This document shows, one piece after another, positions 20,486-25,954 of a stretch of DNA of 37,662 nucleotides. The position numbers and the translations under genes were made by a program. This DNA is from Rhodovarius sp. (lineage in GTDB: Bacteria; Pseudomonadota; Alphaproteobacteria; Acetobacterales; Acetobacteraceae). The notes below the pieces were generated by a model that worked only from the letters and a program-made list of their open reading frames with translations, ran no database searches and had not been told where the DNA came from. Each line of letters starts with the position of its first letter. Position 1 is the first letter of the stretch. The stretch lies in the NCBI GenBank assembly GCA_025057055.1, contig JANWYF010000130.1, forward strand, positions 1 to 37,662. The letters are read 5' to 3'.

Positions 20486-20961
20486 GCCCTGCGCGCGCCT
20501 TCGGGGCCGAGGGCCCGTTCCAGCCCGAACAGGGCCGTCAATGCCCCGCAGGCGATGGCGAGCGCGTTCAGGATCTCGGTCGGATAGCCGATCGCGGCGG
20601 AGACGGAGCCCGCCGTGATGTCGAGGAAGCGCCAGCCCGACCAAGCCAGGAAGAGGCCGAGCGCGGCGGTGGTGGCATCGAGCAGCCGCCGCAGCGCCCC
20701 GCGCAGCGGCCCCGGCAGCCGGTCGGGCAGCAGGGCGAGGCGGACGTGAAAGCCCTCATGCACGCCGAGGGCGAAGCCGCCCAGCACGGTCCAGGAGAAG
20801 AGCAGCACCGCTGCCTCCTCGCTCCAGAAGGAGGCGGCGCCGACGACGTAGCGCATCACCACCTGATAGGCGATGAAGGCGAGCATGCCGGCGGCGGCCA
20901 GCGCGATGGAGAAGCGCGTGAGGGCCGCGGCGGCGCGGGCGGAGGCAGAGAGGATCCTCAC
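20482..20961 (-). CDS. TRAP transporter small permease (DctQ)
   Basis: Four-TM protein with VVMRYVVGAASFWSEEAAVLLFSWTVLGGFALGVHEGFHVRL; overlaps dctM by 4 nt. Confidence 0.95.
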   Translation of the reverse strand: MRILSASARAAAALTRFSIALAAAGMLAFIAYQVVMRYVVGAASFWSEEAAVLLFSWTVLGGFALGVHEGFHVRLALLPDRLPGPLRGALRRLLDATTAALGLFLAWSGWRFLDITAGSVSAAIGYPTEILNALAIACGALTALFGLERALGPEGARRA

Positions 20962-21950
20962 TGCACCGCGGCCAGCGCGTCGCGCACGATCTCGGCTCCG
21001 ATCTGGCCGCGGAAGCTCTCGTACATCGGCAGCACGGCGCGGCGGAAGGCGGCCTTGTCGGCGACCTCGTTGATCTGCATGCCATGCCGGCGCAGGCTGG
21101 CGAGCAGCCCTTCATTGGCGGCGGCATTGGCGGCGCGCTGGGCCGGCGTCGCTTCGGCCGCGGCCTCCTGCAGGGCAGGGCGCAGCTCCGCCGGCAGCCG
21201 GTCGAAGCTGCGCCGGCCGATCAGCAGGCCGATCATCGAGTAGATATGCCCGGTCAGCGAGAGGAACCGCGTCACCTCGTAGAAGCGGTTCTGCTCGATG
21301 ACGCCGAGCGGGATCTCGAGCCCATCGACCGCGCCCTGCTGCACGGCCGTGAAGGTCTCGCCCCAGGCCATGGGCACGGCATTGCCGCCCAGGGTGCGGA
21401 ACATCTCGATGTAGATCGGGCTTTGCAGCACGCGGAACTTGATGCCGCGCAGGTCCTCGGGGCGGTGGATCGGGCGGATGTTGTTGATCATGTGGCGGAA
21501 GCCGCCCTCCATGTAGCCCAAGGCGATCACCCCGCGCGCCTCCAGCCGGCTGCGCAGGGCGGCCCCGACCGGCCCGTCGAGCACGGCGTGGGCCTGCGCC
21601 TCGCTGCCGTAGAGGAAGGGCATGTCGTTGACCTGGAAGGCCGGCTCGATCTGGGCGATGACGGCGTTGGTGATGATGCCCATATCCACCGTGCCGAGGC
21701 GCATGCCATCGAGCATCGGCCGTTCGTCGCCCAACGCGCGGTTGGGGAAGAGCTGCACCTCCACGCGCTCTCCGACGCGGCGTTCCAGGGCGGCCTTGAA
21801 GAGACGGGCGCCGTTGGCATAGGGGTCGAGGGCGCCATCGCCGCTGGTCCAGCCCAAGCGCAGGAGGATGCGGCCCTGCGCCCGCGGCAGGGCGGGGGCC
21901 GAGAGCAAGGCGGCGGCAGTGGCCAGGCCGCGGCGGCTGATGCGGGTCAT
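20958..21950 (-). CDS. TRAP transporter substrate-binding protein (DctP family), copy 2
   Basis: MTRISRRGLATAAALLSAPALPRAQGRILLRLGWTSGDGALDPYANGARLFKAALERRVGERVEVQLFPNRALGDERPMLDGMRLGTVDMGI; overlaps dctQ by 4 nt. Confidence 0.95.
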   Translation of the reverse strand: MTRISRRGLATAAALLSAPALPRAQGRILLRLGWTSGDGALDPYANGARLFKAALERRVGERVEVQLFPNRALGDERPMLDGMRLGTVDMGIITNAVIAQIEPAFQVNDMPFLYGSEAQAHAVLDGPVGAALRSRLEARGVIALGYMEGGFRHMINNIRPIHRPEDLRGIKFRVLQSPIYIEMFRTLGGNAVPMAWGETFTAVQQGAVDGLEIPLGVIEQNRFYEVTRFLSLTGHIYSMIGLLIGRRSFDRLPAELRPALQEAAAEATPAQRAANAAANEGLLASLRRHGMQINEVADKAAFRRAVLPMYESFRGQIGAEIVRDALAAVQ

Positions 21951-22024
21951 GGGCGTCTCCTCTGGCGGTCTTCTGCGGTATGTCGGCCGCGATCATAGGC
22001 GCAGCCACCCTCGCGGCAAGCGAT

Positions 22025-22750
22025 TCAGGGCAGGCCCATCAGCCGTCCGAAGCCTGCCGCACCGCCGGCGATGCCGCAGCGCCGCAGGGCATACCAAGCC
22101 ATGGCCTGGTTGCTCGTGATGACCGGCAGGCCAAGGCTCTGCTCCAGCGCGGCGATCAGCGGGGCCGATCGGACCGCGGTGCAGGAGAGGAACAAGGCCT
22201 CCGCACCGGGGGCGGAGGCACCGAGGGCATCGCGCGCCAGCTGTGCGAGCCGGTCGGGCGGCAGCGCCGCCATCTCCGCATTGGTGGCCAGGCCGAGCAT
22301 GGCGCCGCCCAGCACCTGCCGGCCATGGCTCTCGAGGAAGGCGACCTCCCGCGCATGAACGGCCGCCAGATAGGGGGTGGCCAGCACCAGCCGCCGGGCG
22401 CCGAAGGCCTCCAGCGCGGCCAGGATGGCATCGGCGGTGGCGGCGGCGGGCAGGCCGGTGGCGGCGGCGATGCGGGCGGTGATGTCCGCCGCCATGGCGG
22501 GGGCGAAGGTCGACACCGCCGTGCAGTGAAAGCAGATGAGGTCGGGCCCGGCATCGGCGATGAGCCGCGCCGCCTCCTCGAGCCGGGCGAGCATGGCGAG
22601 CAGCTCCTGCTCGCTGCTGCCCCGCAGCGGCAACCGGGTGAAGACCGGCGCGACGCCTGAGGGAAGCAGGGCGCGCAGTTCGGCCTCCACCACCCGGTTG
22701 CCGGAGGGGATGAGGAAGCCGATCCGCGCCCGGTCACCATAGTCGATCAT
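22025..22750 (-). CDS. Asp/Glu racemase superfamily; maleate cis-trans isomerase / arylmalonate decarboxylase-like
   Basis: ARIGFLIPSGNRVVEAELRALLPSGV...LICFHCTAVSTF...ALFLSCTAVRSAPLIAALEQSLGLPVITSNQAMAWYALRRCG; two CTA catalytic-type cysteines. Confidence 0.9.
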   Translation of the reverse strand: MIDYGDRARIGFLIPSGNRVVEAELRALLPSGVAPVFTRLPLRGSSEQELLAMLARLEEAARLIADAGPDLICFHCTAVSTFAPAMAADITARIAAATGLPAAATADAILAALEAFGARRLVLATPYLAAVHAREVAFLESHGRQVLGGAMLGLATNAEMAALPPDRLAQLARDALGASAPGAEALFLSCTAVRSAPLIAALEQSLGLPVITSNQAMAWYALRRCGIAGGAAGFGRLMGLP

Positions 22751-23646
22751 GGGACGAGGGAGGCCCGCGCCTCGGCCAGGAAGGAGCGGTCGATGTAGTC
22801 CGCCGCGCGGCTGCGGGCGCGGGTCGGCAGGTCGCGGATCAGCGCGCTGGTTTCGATCAGCGCCTGCACGCCTGCCTCCGAGGCTTCGCCGTCGGCGGGG
22901 AAGATCGCCTCGCGCGTGTAGTGTTCCCAGGCGAGGTCGGCGTGGCGGGCCGACAGCTTCGCCTCGCGCATCGCGACGTGGCGCGCGAAGTCGCGGTCGG
23001 CGAAGAAGCGCTCATGCGCGCGCAGGAAGCCGCGCAGGAAGCGCAGCAGCAGGTCGCGATGGGCGCTGGCCCAGCCGAGGTCGACATCCAGGCTGGTGAA
23101 CTGGAAGTCTTGCCGCGGCGCGCAGAGGCGCACGAAACCCTGTTCCTGCGCGATCAGATCGAGCGGGGTGCCCTGCAGGCCGGCGTCGATCTCGCCGCGC
23201 TGCAGCAGCGCCCAGCGCGCCAGGATCGGTCCGCAGGGCACCAGCTCGTAATCGTCGGGCCAGGAGAGCCCGGCCTCGGCCAGCAGTTTCATGATCAGCG
23301 AGGAGGAGCCGGCGCGCAGCGAGGAGACGCCGATGCGCCGCCCGCGCAGGTCCGCGAGGCTCGCAATGCCCGGCCGCGCGATCAGCGAGAAGGGCAGGCG
23401 GTTGACGTTGCCGCCGATGATCGCCTGGCGCCCGCCGGCCTCAGCATCCAGGATGACATGTTCCGTCACGCCATAGGCGAGCTGCACATGCCCGGCGCGG
23501 AGGCGGTCGTTGACCTCCTCGATGCCCTCGATGTGCTCGATCGCGAGCTCTATGCCCTCGGCGGCGAAATAGCCGGCGTGCAGGCCGAGCCAGACCGGCA
23601 GGTTGAAGTAGTTGCGCGAGACCACGGCCATGGCGAGCCTGTCCAT
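22747..23646 (-). CDS. NMT1/THI5-like (ABC-type SBP fold) protein
   Basis: MDRLAMAVVSRNYFNLPVWLGLHAGYFAAEGIELAIEHIEGIEEVNDRLRAGHVQLAYGVTEHVIL...LRGRRIGVSSLRAGSSSLIMKLLAEAGL; 4-nt overlap with the racemase gene. Start refined to 23646. Confidence 0.85.
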   Translation of the reverse strand: MDRLAMAVVSRNYFNLPVWLGLHAGYFAAEGIELAIEHIEGIEEVNDRLRAGHVQLAYGVTEHVILDAEAGGRQAIIGGNVNRLPFSLIARPGIASLADLRGRRIGVSSLRAGSSSLIMKLLAEAGLSWPDDYELVPCGPILARWALLQRGEIDAGLQGTPLDLIAQEQGFVRLCAPRQDFQFTSLDVDLGWASAHRDLLLRFLRGFLRAHERFFADRDFARHVAMREAKLSARHADLAWEHYTREAIFPADGEASEAGVQALIETSALIRDLPTRARSRAADYIDRSFLAEARASLVP

Positions 23647-23741: not shown

Positions 23742-23777
23742 AAAAAAAGGCCCGGCGATCCAGGGGATCGGCCGGGC
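23742..23777 (-). terminator. Rho-independent terminator (minus strand)
   Basis: Minus strand GCCCGGCCGATC-ccctg-GATCGCCGGGC followed by seven T (plus-strand A-run 23742-23748). Confidence 0.85.
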
Positions 23778-23846
23778 AGTGATACAGGGAGGCTTCACGT
23801 CTGGGAGACGAAGGATCCGAAGACCCTGCCGGCGCAACATGCCGAC
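23742..23846 (-). ncRNA. AbcR (alpha-r15)-like trans-acting small RNA candidate
   Basis: Minus strand CUUCGUCUCCCAGACGUGAAGCCUCCCUGUAUC...terminator: hairpin with CUCCC loop, a second single-stranded CCUCCC, and a terminator. Lies immediately downstream of an LsrB/VtlR-like LysR gene, as abcR genes do in Rhizobiales. -10-like TATCTT at 23853-23858 (minus). Confidence 0.7.
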
Positions 23847-23928
23847 GGCGCAAAGATAGGACCGCCGGCCTGCCTAGGGAAAAGGCAAGCCGGCGCGCCT
23901 GCCATGCGCCTTGCGCATGCGTTCGCGC

Positions 23929-24822
23929 TCAGCCATGGGATTGTGCGAGTTCTGCCACCAGGAAGTCGCGGAAGACGGCCACGCGTTTCGAGTTCCGCAT
24001 CTCCTCCGGATAGACGAAATAGGCATGGATCTTGGGCGCCTTGAGGTCGGGCAGGACCCGCACCAGCCCTTCGAGCTGGTCCTCGAGGTAGGACGGCATG
24101 GCGGCGAGGCCGAGGCCGGAGCGCACCGCGGCCATGATCCCGGTCAGGCTGTTCATCTCCACCGCCGGTCGGCGGTTGGCGCCGTTGCGGCGGCCGACCT
24201 CGGCCAGCCAGTTCACCCCCTCGACCGGCGGGCGGTAATCGCCCCAGATGATCAGCCGGTGCGCGTCCAGATCCTCGGCCCGGGTCGGCACGCCGTGCTG
24301 CTTGAGATATTCCGGCGCCCCGTAGACCGCCCAGTCGAAGGTCGCGAGGTGGCGCTGGATCAGGTCGGGCTGCTTCGGGGCATGCATGCGGATGGCGACA
24401 TCGGCCTCCCGCATCGCGAGGTCGAGGTCGGCATCGTCCAGCAGCACCGAGACCGAGACCTCCGGATAGAGGTCGAGGAAGCGCTTGAGCCGGGGGGCGA
24501 GCCAGATGCTGCCGAAGCCGGCGGTGGTGGTGATCTTGAGCCGCCCGGCCGGGCGTTCCCGCCCCTCGGTCAGCAGCGCCTCGGTCATCGCGAGCTTGGC
24601 GAAGACCTCGCGCACGGTGCGATAGAGGGTCTCCCCGGCCTCGGTCAGGATCAGGCCGCGGGCGTGGCGGTGAAACAGCGGCACCGAGAGGGCTTCCTCG
24701 AGCGCCTGGATCTGGCGGGAGACGGCGGATTGGCTGAGGTTGAGCGTCTCTCCGGCATGGGTGAAGGACCCGGCCTCGGCCACCGCGTGGAAGACGCGCA
24801 GCTTGTCCCAGTCGAGCGGCAT
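23929..24822 (-). CDS. LysR-family transcriptional regulator, LsrB/VtlR-like
   Basis: MPLDWDKLRVFHAVAEAGSFTHAGETLNLSQSAVSRQIQALEEALSVPLFHRHARGLILTEAGETLYRT...PEEMRNSKRVAVFRDFLVAEL; resembles S. meliloti LsrB from memory; located next to trxB. Confidence 0.92.
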   Translation of the reverse strand: MPLDWDKLRVFHAVAEAGSFTHAGETLNLSQSAVSRQIQALEEALSVPLFHRHARGLILTEAGETLYRTVREVFAKLAMTEALLTEGRERPAGRLKITTTAGFGSIWLAPRLKRFLDLYPEVSVSVLLDDADLDLAMREADVAIRMHAPKQPDLIQRHLATFDWAVYGAPEYLKQHGVPTRAEDLDAHRLIIWGDYRPPVEGVNWLAEVGRRNGANRRPAVEMNSLTGIMAAVRSGLGLAAMPSYLEDQLEGLVRVLPDLKAPKIHAYFVYPEEMRNSKRVAVFRDFLVAELAQSHG

Positions 24823-25796
24823 CAGGCGGCCTCCTGCCCGGCGAAGCGGCTGGCGGCCAGGAAGCGTTCGGCATCGAGCGCCGCCATGCAGCCGGTGCCG
24901 GCCGCGGTCACCGCCTGCCGATAGATCTTGTCCGCCACGTCGCCGGCGGCGAAGACGCCGGGGACGCTGGTGCGGGTGCTGCCCGGCTCGACCAGGATAT
25001 AGCCCGCCTGGTCCATCGCCACCTGGCCGCGGAAGACGGCGGTGGCCGGGTCATGCCCGATCGCGACGAACAGGCCATCGACCGGCAGTTCCGACACCGC
25101 TCCGCTGCGCAGGTCGCGCAGCCGCAGCGCGCGCAGGGAAGGGCGGGGCGAAGCATCGGGCAGGGCGGCCTCGACCACCGTGTTCCAGAGGAAGCGGACA
25201 TTGGGCCGGGCGAACAGGCGCTGCTGCAGGATCTTTTCGCTGCGCAGGCTGTCGCGCCGGTGGATCAGGATCACCTCGGCGGCGAGGTTGGAGAGATAGA
25301 GCGCCTCCTCGGTCGCGCTGTTGCCCCCGCCGACCACCGCCACCCGCCGGCCGCGGAAGAAGAAGCCATCGCAGGTCGCGCAGGCCGAGACGCCGAACCC
25401 CGCGAGCTCCCGCTCCCCCGGGATGCCGAGCCAGCGCGCCTCCGCCCCCGTGGCGATCACCACCGCATCGGCCAGGAACTCATCCCCGCTGTCGCCGCGG
25501 CAGCGGAAGGGCCGGGTCGAGAAATCGGCCGCGATCACCACATCCTGGATGATCCTTGCGCCGACATGCTCGGCCTGGGCCCGCATCTGTTCCATCAGCC
25601 ACGGCCCCTGCACGGCCTGGGCGAAGCCCGGGTAGTTCTCGACGTCGGTGGTGATGGTGAGCTGCCCGCCGGGCCTGAGGCCGGCCACCACCAGAGGGGC
25701 GAGCCCGGCGCGCGCGGCATAGATCGCGGCCGTGTAGCCGGCCGGGCCGGCGCCGATGATCAGAAGCTGGGTGCGATGGGTCGTAGGCACGGGCAT
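24822..25796 (-). CDS. trxB: Thioredoxin-disulfide reductase
   Basis: LLIIGAGPAGYTAAIYAARAGL...SACATCDGFFFRGRRVAVVGGGNSATEEALYLS...VFAAGDVADKIYRQAVTAAGTGCMAALDAERFL; CATC redox motif. Confidence 0.97.
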   Translation of the reverse strand: MPVPTTHRTQLLIIGAGPAGYTAAIYAARAGLAPLVVAGLRPGGQLTITTDVENYPGFAQAVQGPWLMEQMRAQAEHVGARIIQDVVIAADFSTRPFRCRGDSGDEFLADAVVIATGAEARWLGIPGERELAGFGVSACATCDGFFFRGRRVAVVGGGNSATEEALYLSNLAAEVILIHRRDSLRSEKILQQRLFARPNVRFLWNTVVEAALPDASPRPSLRALRLRDLRSGAVSELPVDGLFVAIGHDPATAVFRGQVAMDQAGYILVEPGSTRTSVPGVFAAGDVADKIYRQAVTAAGTGCMAALDAERFLAASRFAGQEAA

Positions 25797-25917: not shown

Positions 25918-25954
25918 CCTGGTGGCGCCAGCGCGCAACGACAAGTGGACACCG

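Follow-up and report, generated by a model that had tools for sequence, protein, structure and literature searches.

A conserved small RNA (sRNA) gene was identified by sequence analysis in a 37,662-nt stretch of DNA from Rhodovarius sp. (hereafter the window), at positions 23742-23846 of the minus strand and immediately downstream of a LysR-type regulator gene. The gene is real, and its conservation, place, structure and upstream palindrome are all evident from comparison with related genomes. Its product is likely a trans-acting anti-Shine-Dalgarno (aSD) sRNA, which would be activated by LsrB and would restrain the translation of substrate-binding protein (SBP) mRNAs.

The transcript was placed on the minus strand from a start at 23846, deduced from a −10 element, through a U tract at its end, and its predicted length is approximately 105 nt. 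The minimum free energy of this 105-nt sRNA was −46.1 kcal/mol (z = −4.1), and none of 200 shuffled sequences was equally stable. A sequence-only reading of the window had proposed an unannotated, single-copy sRNA with a strong terminator and two CUCCC-type aSD elements. The minus-strand sequence quoted there is present at 23742-23850, and the sRNA is borne out by its non-chance fold and by a core kept in many genomes. In addition, a search with the covariance model R1 gave a single copy in the Rhodovarius sp. genome, a terminator-like hairpin was found at the 3′ end, and both aSD elements were located, CUCCCA in SL2 and CCUCCC in aSD2.

From 5′ to 3′, the sRNA is composed of SL0, SL1, SL2, GAAGCCUCCCUG, a short spacer with ACU at its end, and the terminator, all on the minus strand. 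SL0 (23828-23846) is a sequence-variable hairpin in the fold, and similar 5′ hairpins were found in relatives. SL1 (23812-23827, AGGGUC-UUCG-GAUCCU), which is of the type AGGGUC-loop-GACCCU among relatives, was absent from the earlier description; both-sided changes occurred in 4 of its 6 pairs, and its covariation was 0.199 compared with 0.125 in shuffles (0/500). SL2 (23798-23810, CGUCU-CCC-AGACG) contains the M1-type CUCCCA at 23802-23807 and was nearly invariant, 99% of its cells being paired in the alignment of relatives. A hairpin exposing CUCCC had been described at this place. The hairpin is present, but its exposure was overstated, because the triloop of the predicted SL2 leaves no more than CCC unpaired and the C and U of CUCCC lie within the stem; the outer CUU/AAG extension of the stem was not conserved in relatives. 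The second aSD element, aSD2 (AAGCCUCCCUG, 23785-23795), includes CCUCCC at 23787-23792 and has its complement, GGGAGG/AGGGAGGCTTC, in the ribosome-binding sites of SBP genes. It was invariant across the 46-sequence alignment, as was GAAGCCUCCCUG. The intrinsic terminator, a terminator-like hairpin with a U tract, occupies 23742-23777. A reading of the core as a small open reading frame was rejected, the spacer between CCUCCCUG and ACU being variable in length.

When 60 genomes were searched by blastn, strong matches came from the same genus and family and from several further families, and these could be reduced to a 24-base core, GUCUCCCAGACGUGAAGCCUCCCUG. An exact IUPAC scan found the core in at least 118 stretches of GTDB genomes; the matches listed were mostly from Rhodospirillales sensu lato and included Azospirillum, Roseomonas, Belnapia, Acidiphilium, Reyranella, Thalassospira, Kiloniella, Magnetovibrio, Nisaea, Minwuia and Caedibacter. 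R1, a covariance model from 46 sequences, matched 29 of 60 relatives at E <= 0.01 and, across the class, 140 of 289 genomes at E <= 0.1. Its match in the window (23744-23832, 77 bits) is not independent, because the alignment includes the window's own sequence. The core sequence had no match in the text of the papers on bacteria that were searched, nor in that of an sRNA paper on Azospirillum brasilense. In small genomes (G270, G280 and G048; loci L025, L076 and L079), the RNA was multi-copy and/or located away from LysR, with six, four and two R1 matches in G270, G280 and G048, respectively; two of the small genomes are titled Caedibacter/Caedimonas. Because the best LysR proteins in these three genomes were just 36-42% identical, the RNA may be maintained there without LsrB. 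A metagenome-assembled genome titled Rhizobium sp. Q54 (L097) carried LysR and an RNA of the Reyranella type, and its title is probably a mislabel.

The sRNA gene is preceded on the same strand by lysR (23929-24822), and lysR by its upstream partner trxB (24822-25796), which encodes a thioredoxin reductase (TIGR01292, over the cut-off) and whose longest reading frame starts at 25952. The LysR gene lay directly upstream of the sRNA in 24 of 25 relatives, at 62 of 80 named loci (among the other 18, at least 4 end within 150 bases) and at the majority of 20 divergent loci in other families; trxB preceded lysR at most of the LysR-linked loci, including that of the window. The position directly downstream of an LsrB/VtlR-type regulator, as first proposed, was thus confirmed, both by the orthology of the regulator and by the gene order in relatives. 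Sixteen same-family genomes kept LysR and had no strong R1 match; therefore, LsrB does not depend on the sRNA. The downstream gene is not conserved, and in the window a gene for an NMT1-like protein (22747-23646, minus strand) lies there, outside the conserved unit. It forms part of a cluster at 20958-23646 for NMT1-like, arylmalonate decarboxylase/Asp-Glu racemase-like and TRAP DctP proteins, in which the DctP gene has the ribosome-binding site GGAGACG, which shows complementarity to the SL2 region of the RNA.

The best PDB match of the window LysR, which was also assigned with Pfam, was 9hh1, LsrB of A. tumefaciens (321 bits, E 4e-95), and the next match scored 122 bits. It was approximately 80% identical to LysR of Roseicella, Belnapia and Roseomonas, which marks the genome as one of Acetobacteraceae type. 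By sequence orthology as well as by its trxB neighbor, the window LysR is an LsrB/VtlR ortholog. A 2025 study described LsrB as unique to Rhizobiales (PMC11975290), and conservation of trxB-vtlR in the class was noted earlier (PMC7486931). Since the ortholog was found beside the sRNA outside Rhizobiales, LsrB is, judged by orthology, not restricted to that order, contrary to the former report. The redox cysteines of LsrB are C144 and C273 (PMC11975290). The window LysR contains no cysteine and has V at both equivalent positions; therefore, it is predicted to be unable to sense ROS through these thiols. Among 100 orthologs beside this sRNA type, Cys was found at the C273 equivalent in none and at the C144 equivalent in 6, and 70 had no cysteine in the aligned stretch.

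The sequence-only reading had taken the sRNA to be a relative of AbcR (alpha-r15). Membership of the alpha-r15 family was not supported. In the window, RF02345 (alpha-r15) gave no gathering match and was not listed at E <= 5; over its cut-off of 40 bits it matched neither this genome and 20 relatives (0/21) nor the genomes of the class (0/289), in searches that had no Rhizobiaceae positive control. No Rfam release 15 model reached its cut-off on the sRNA. The ar15 consensus, through which the comparison was made in place of a direct alignment to AbcR loci, presents CUCCC in a loop of 15 nt, which is followed by GUUCCCCUCUG, a middle hairpin and an A/U-rich region. Like AbcR1 and AbcR2 (RF02345; Rhizobiaceae and Brucellaceae), the window RNA lies downstream of trxB-lsrB/vtlR, next to an orthologous activator with a related box, has the identical M1 motif CUCCCA (PMC5461406) in a hairpin (here GU-CUCCCA-GAC), two aSD elements and a terminator, and has SBP mRNAs as predicted targets. 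On the other hand, M1 is located in a 15-nt loop in AbcR and at a 3-nt loop here; M2, GUUCCC(CUC), between the AbcR hairpins is replaced by GCCUCCCUG, which was invariant in 46 sequences; where ar15 has GUUCCCCUCUG, the conserved linker here is AAGCCUCCCUG-ACU; the middle AGGUUU-ACCU hairpin of the three-hairpin layout is absent from the window fold; and the window RNA is single-copy and has an extra covarying 5′ hairpin. Divergent trxB-lysR-linked RNAs scored in a gradient of 27-56 bits to R1, some in two or three tandem copies like AbcR1/AbcR2, and common descent of the sRNA with AbcR is therefore plausible. Such tandem sets were seen downstream of trxB-lysR at L170 and L171 (G203 and G300), where one copy has CCUCCCA in a large hairpin loop. 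It is possible, though rather doubtful, that the sRNA is a true alpha-r15 member that diverged beyond the Rfam model. These comparisons rather suggest a sister type at the AbcR locus that forms a distinct sequence family and would act in an AbcR-like manner.

The start regions of SBP-type genes, identified by phmmer, were compared with those of other genes in a 0.8 Mb sample of this genome (G000) annotated with a simple, crude gene caller. Contiguous complementarity of at least six bases to the aSD2 region was found in 17 of 26 SBP start regions and 77 of 502 others (p = 4e-8, the ribosome-binding sites of related SBP paralogs being not independent). Fourteen motifs were tested in genes with an SD-like motif: 12 of 25 SBP genes had GGGAGG, compared with 35 of the 274 other genes (p = 7e-5), and GAGGCTT, by which the pairing reaches into GAAGCC, was seen in 3 of the 25 SBP genes and in none of the 274 others (p = 5e-4). 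One DctP gene start had an 11-base match, AGGGAGGCTTC, to the sRNA. The signal emerged with contiguous complementarity and not with whole-duplex energies (RNAduplex), which showed no SBP enrichment in the start regions in a run where the energies of some genes were invalid. SBP genes also matched the 16S anti-SD slightly better than others did (p = 6e-4), as would be expected if their ribosome-binding sites were merely strong SD sequences and the RNA acted on other mRNAs or titrated something else. This explanation is unlikely: AGGAGG was not enriched (3/25 SBPs against 27/274 others, p = 0.47), and the complementarity to the sRNA minus that to 16S was still greater in SBPs (p = 2e-4). In G007, a genome of the same genus in which LysR is kept and the RNA was not found, this difference was absent (p = 0.85, compared with 5.5e-4 in G000 by the same script), and GGGAGG was not significantly enriched (3/31 SBPs against 9/240 others, p = 0.15); this comparison covers two genomes that differ in SD usage, GGGAGG being commoner overall in G000. 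RNA-specific complementarity at the start sites of transporter SBPs is supported by these motif counts.

A probable −10 element, TATCTT, is located at 23853-23858 on the minus strand, and the same element recurs in the relatives L003, L005, L010 and L012 at approximately 50 bases 5′ of the core. A promoter consensus search found no σ70 consensus pair upstream of the window sRNA, and a missing σ70 consensus is common at activator-dependent promoters. A LysR-type recognition palindrome, ATGCGCAAGGCGCAT, was found at 23904-23918 (minus strand), and its center, at approximately −65 relative to the inferred start, falls where LysR-type regulators usually have their recognition site. Perfect ATGC-N7-GCAT was present in 65% of 98 loci, compared with 1% in Markov shuffles, and sits approximately 90-190 bases upstream of the core. 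The VtlR/LsrB box reported in Rhizobiales, GCAT-N3-TG-N3-T (PMC7486931, PMC8844928), exactly continues the perfect palindrome in 9 of 65 loci; the window palindrome is without the exact box, GCATGGCAGGCGC carrying A and C in place of two expected T residues. When the 900 bases downstream of LysR were inspected at 12 same-family loci with LysR and without an R1 match, one of them that of same-genus G007, none contained the palindrome. Directly after the LysR-type box, the window has a terminator-like inverted repeat, GGCAGGCGCGCCGGCTTGCC-TTTT (23884-23903), and a similar sequence is present in relatives of the same genus. This repeat may terminate trxB-lysR or form part of the activator site.

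Since the hairpins lie directly downstream of lysR with no σ70 consensus, the trxB-lysR transcript might simply end in them as its 3′ UTR and terminator, with no independent sRNA; 3′-UTR-derived sRNAs exist. We regard this as quite improbable, because the separate terminator-like hairpin at 23884-23903 lies upstream, the stretch between lysR and the RNA contains the palindrome and TATCTT, termination needs no conserved aSD core, and G048 (L025) and other reduced genomes retain the core despite having no close LsrB ortholog. That the sRNA is a cis-acting leader or attenuator of the NMT1-like gene, which begins on the same strand some 95 bases past the terminator, is extremely improbable, because this gene adjoins the RNA in this genome only among 25 loci, and the RNA ends in a terminator and is conserved despite differing downstream sequence.

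We infer that the LsrB-activated sRNA represses SBP mRNAs in the following manner. The LsrB/VtlR-type activator encoded just upstream would bind the ATGC-N7-GCAT site and switch on the RNA of approximately 105 nt with its own terminator. The sRNA, probably acting with Hfq (hfq is encoded in this genome), would pair through GAAGCCUCCCUG with the GGGAGG-type ribosome-binding sites of periplasmic SBP mRNAs, those of TRAP/DctP, TctC, SBP_bac_5 and others, and the CUCCCA hairpin would serve as a secondary pairing site. SBP translation would thereby be lowered and the uptake of many substrates restrained together, like the action of AbcR1 in Rhizobiales.

AbcR control of nutrient uptake was described for Rhizobiaceae and Brucellaceae (PMC8844928). 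Here, the regulator and an analogous sRNA gene, of a type covered by no Rfam family, occur together in Acetobacteraceae, Azospirillum, Reyranella, Magnetovibrio, Kiloniella and many others. With a ready model, an activator box, a set of predicted targets and genomes with natural loss of the RNA now to hand, it becomes possible to test directly how the AbcR circuit and redox sensing by LsrB arose.

As judged from motif order, the module hairpin-CCUCCCU-ACU(U)-terminator appears to resemble mmgR, SorX, SorY and BjrC1505 at least as much as ar15. MmgR/suhB (RF00519; 17.7 bits, E 0.59, below the cut-off of 41) likewise has a short hairpin followed by CCUCCCU, ACUU and a terminator, but differs in hairpin and length, and its S. 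meliloti copy is not described as adjoining lsrB; Rfam clan CL00108 holds both ar15 and suhB. The best Rfam match of the window was SorX (RF02784; 19.5 bits, E 0.051, below the cut-off of 46.6), which, like SorY (RF02651), is from Rhodobacterales and shares the CCUCCCUGUUGGAC-terminator module. SorX and SorY both repress transporter mRNAs. A trxB-lysR neighbor was not detected by tblastn at the SorX/SorY-like loci L172 and L173. BjrC1505 (RF02356) has the module GACGCCUCCCUGUU-N-ACUU-terminator, and CCUCCCUGUU-ACUU-terminator is common to SorY, BjrC1505 and the window RNA. BjrC1505 was considered as a positional ortholog and rejected, its separate genomic loci being without trxB-lysR. RNAs of the BjrC1505 type (GACGCCUCCCUGUU-ACUU; L190-L201) occur in several families and together with R1 matches in G036, G148, G115, G183 and G092. 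As a tentative scenario, which we hold to be less probable than not, the LsrB-sRNA pair would be an ancient module of Alphaproteobacteria, in which the Rhodospirillales RNA stands near the ancestral form that gave rise to ar15/AbcR, and perhaps to mmgR, SorX/SorY and BjrC1505, all within one aSD superfamily, and LsrB was first a non-thiol (metabolite-type) sensor that gained its redox cysteines only in Rhizobiales.
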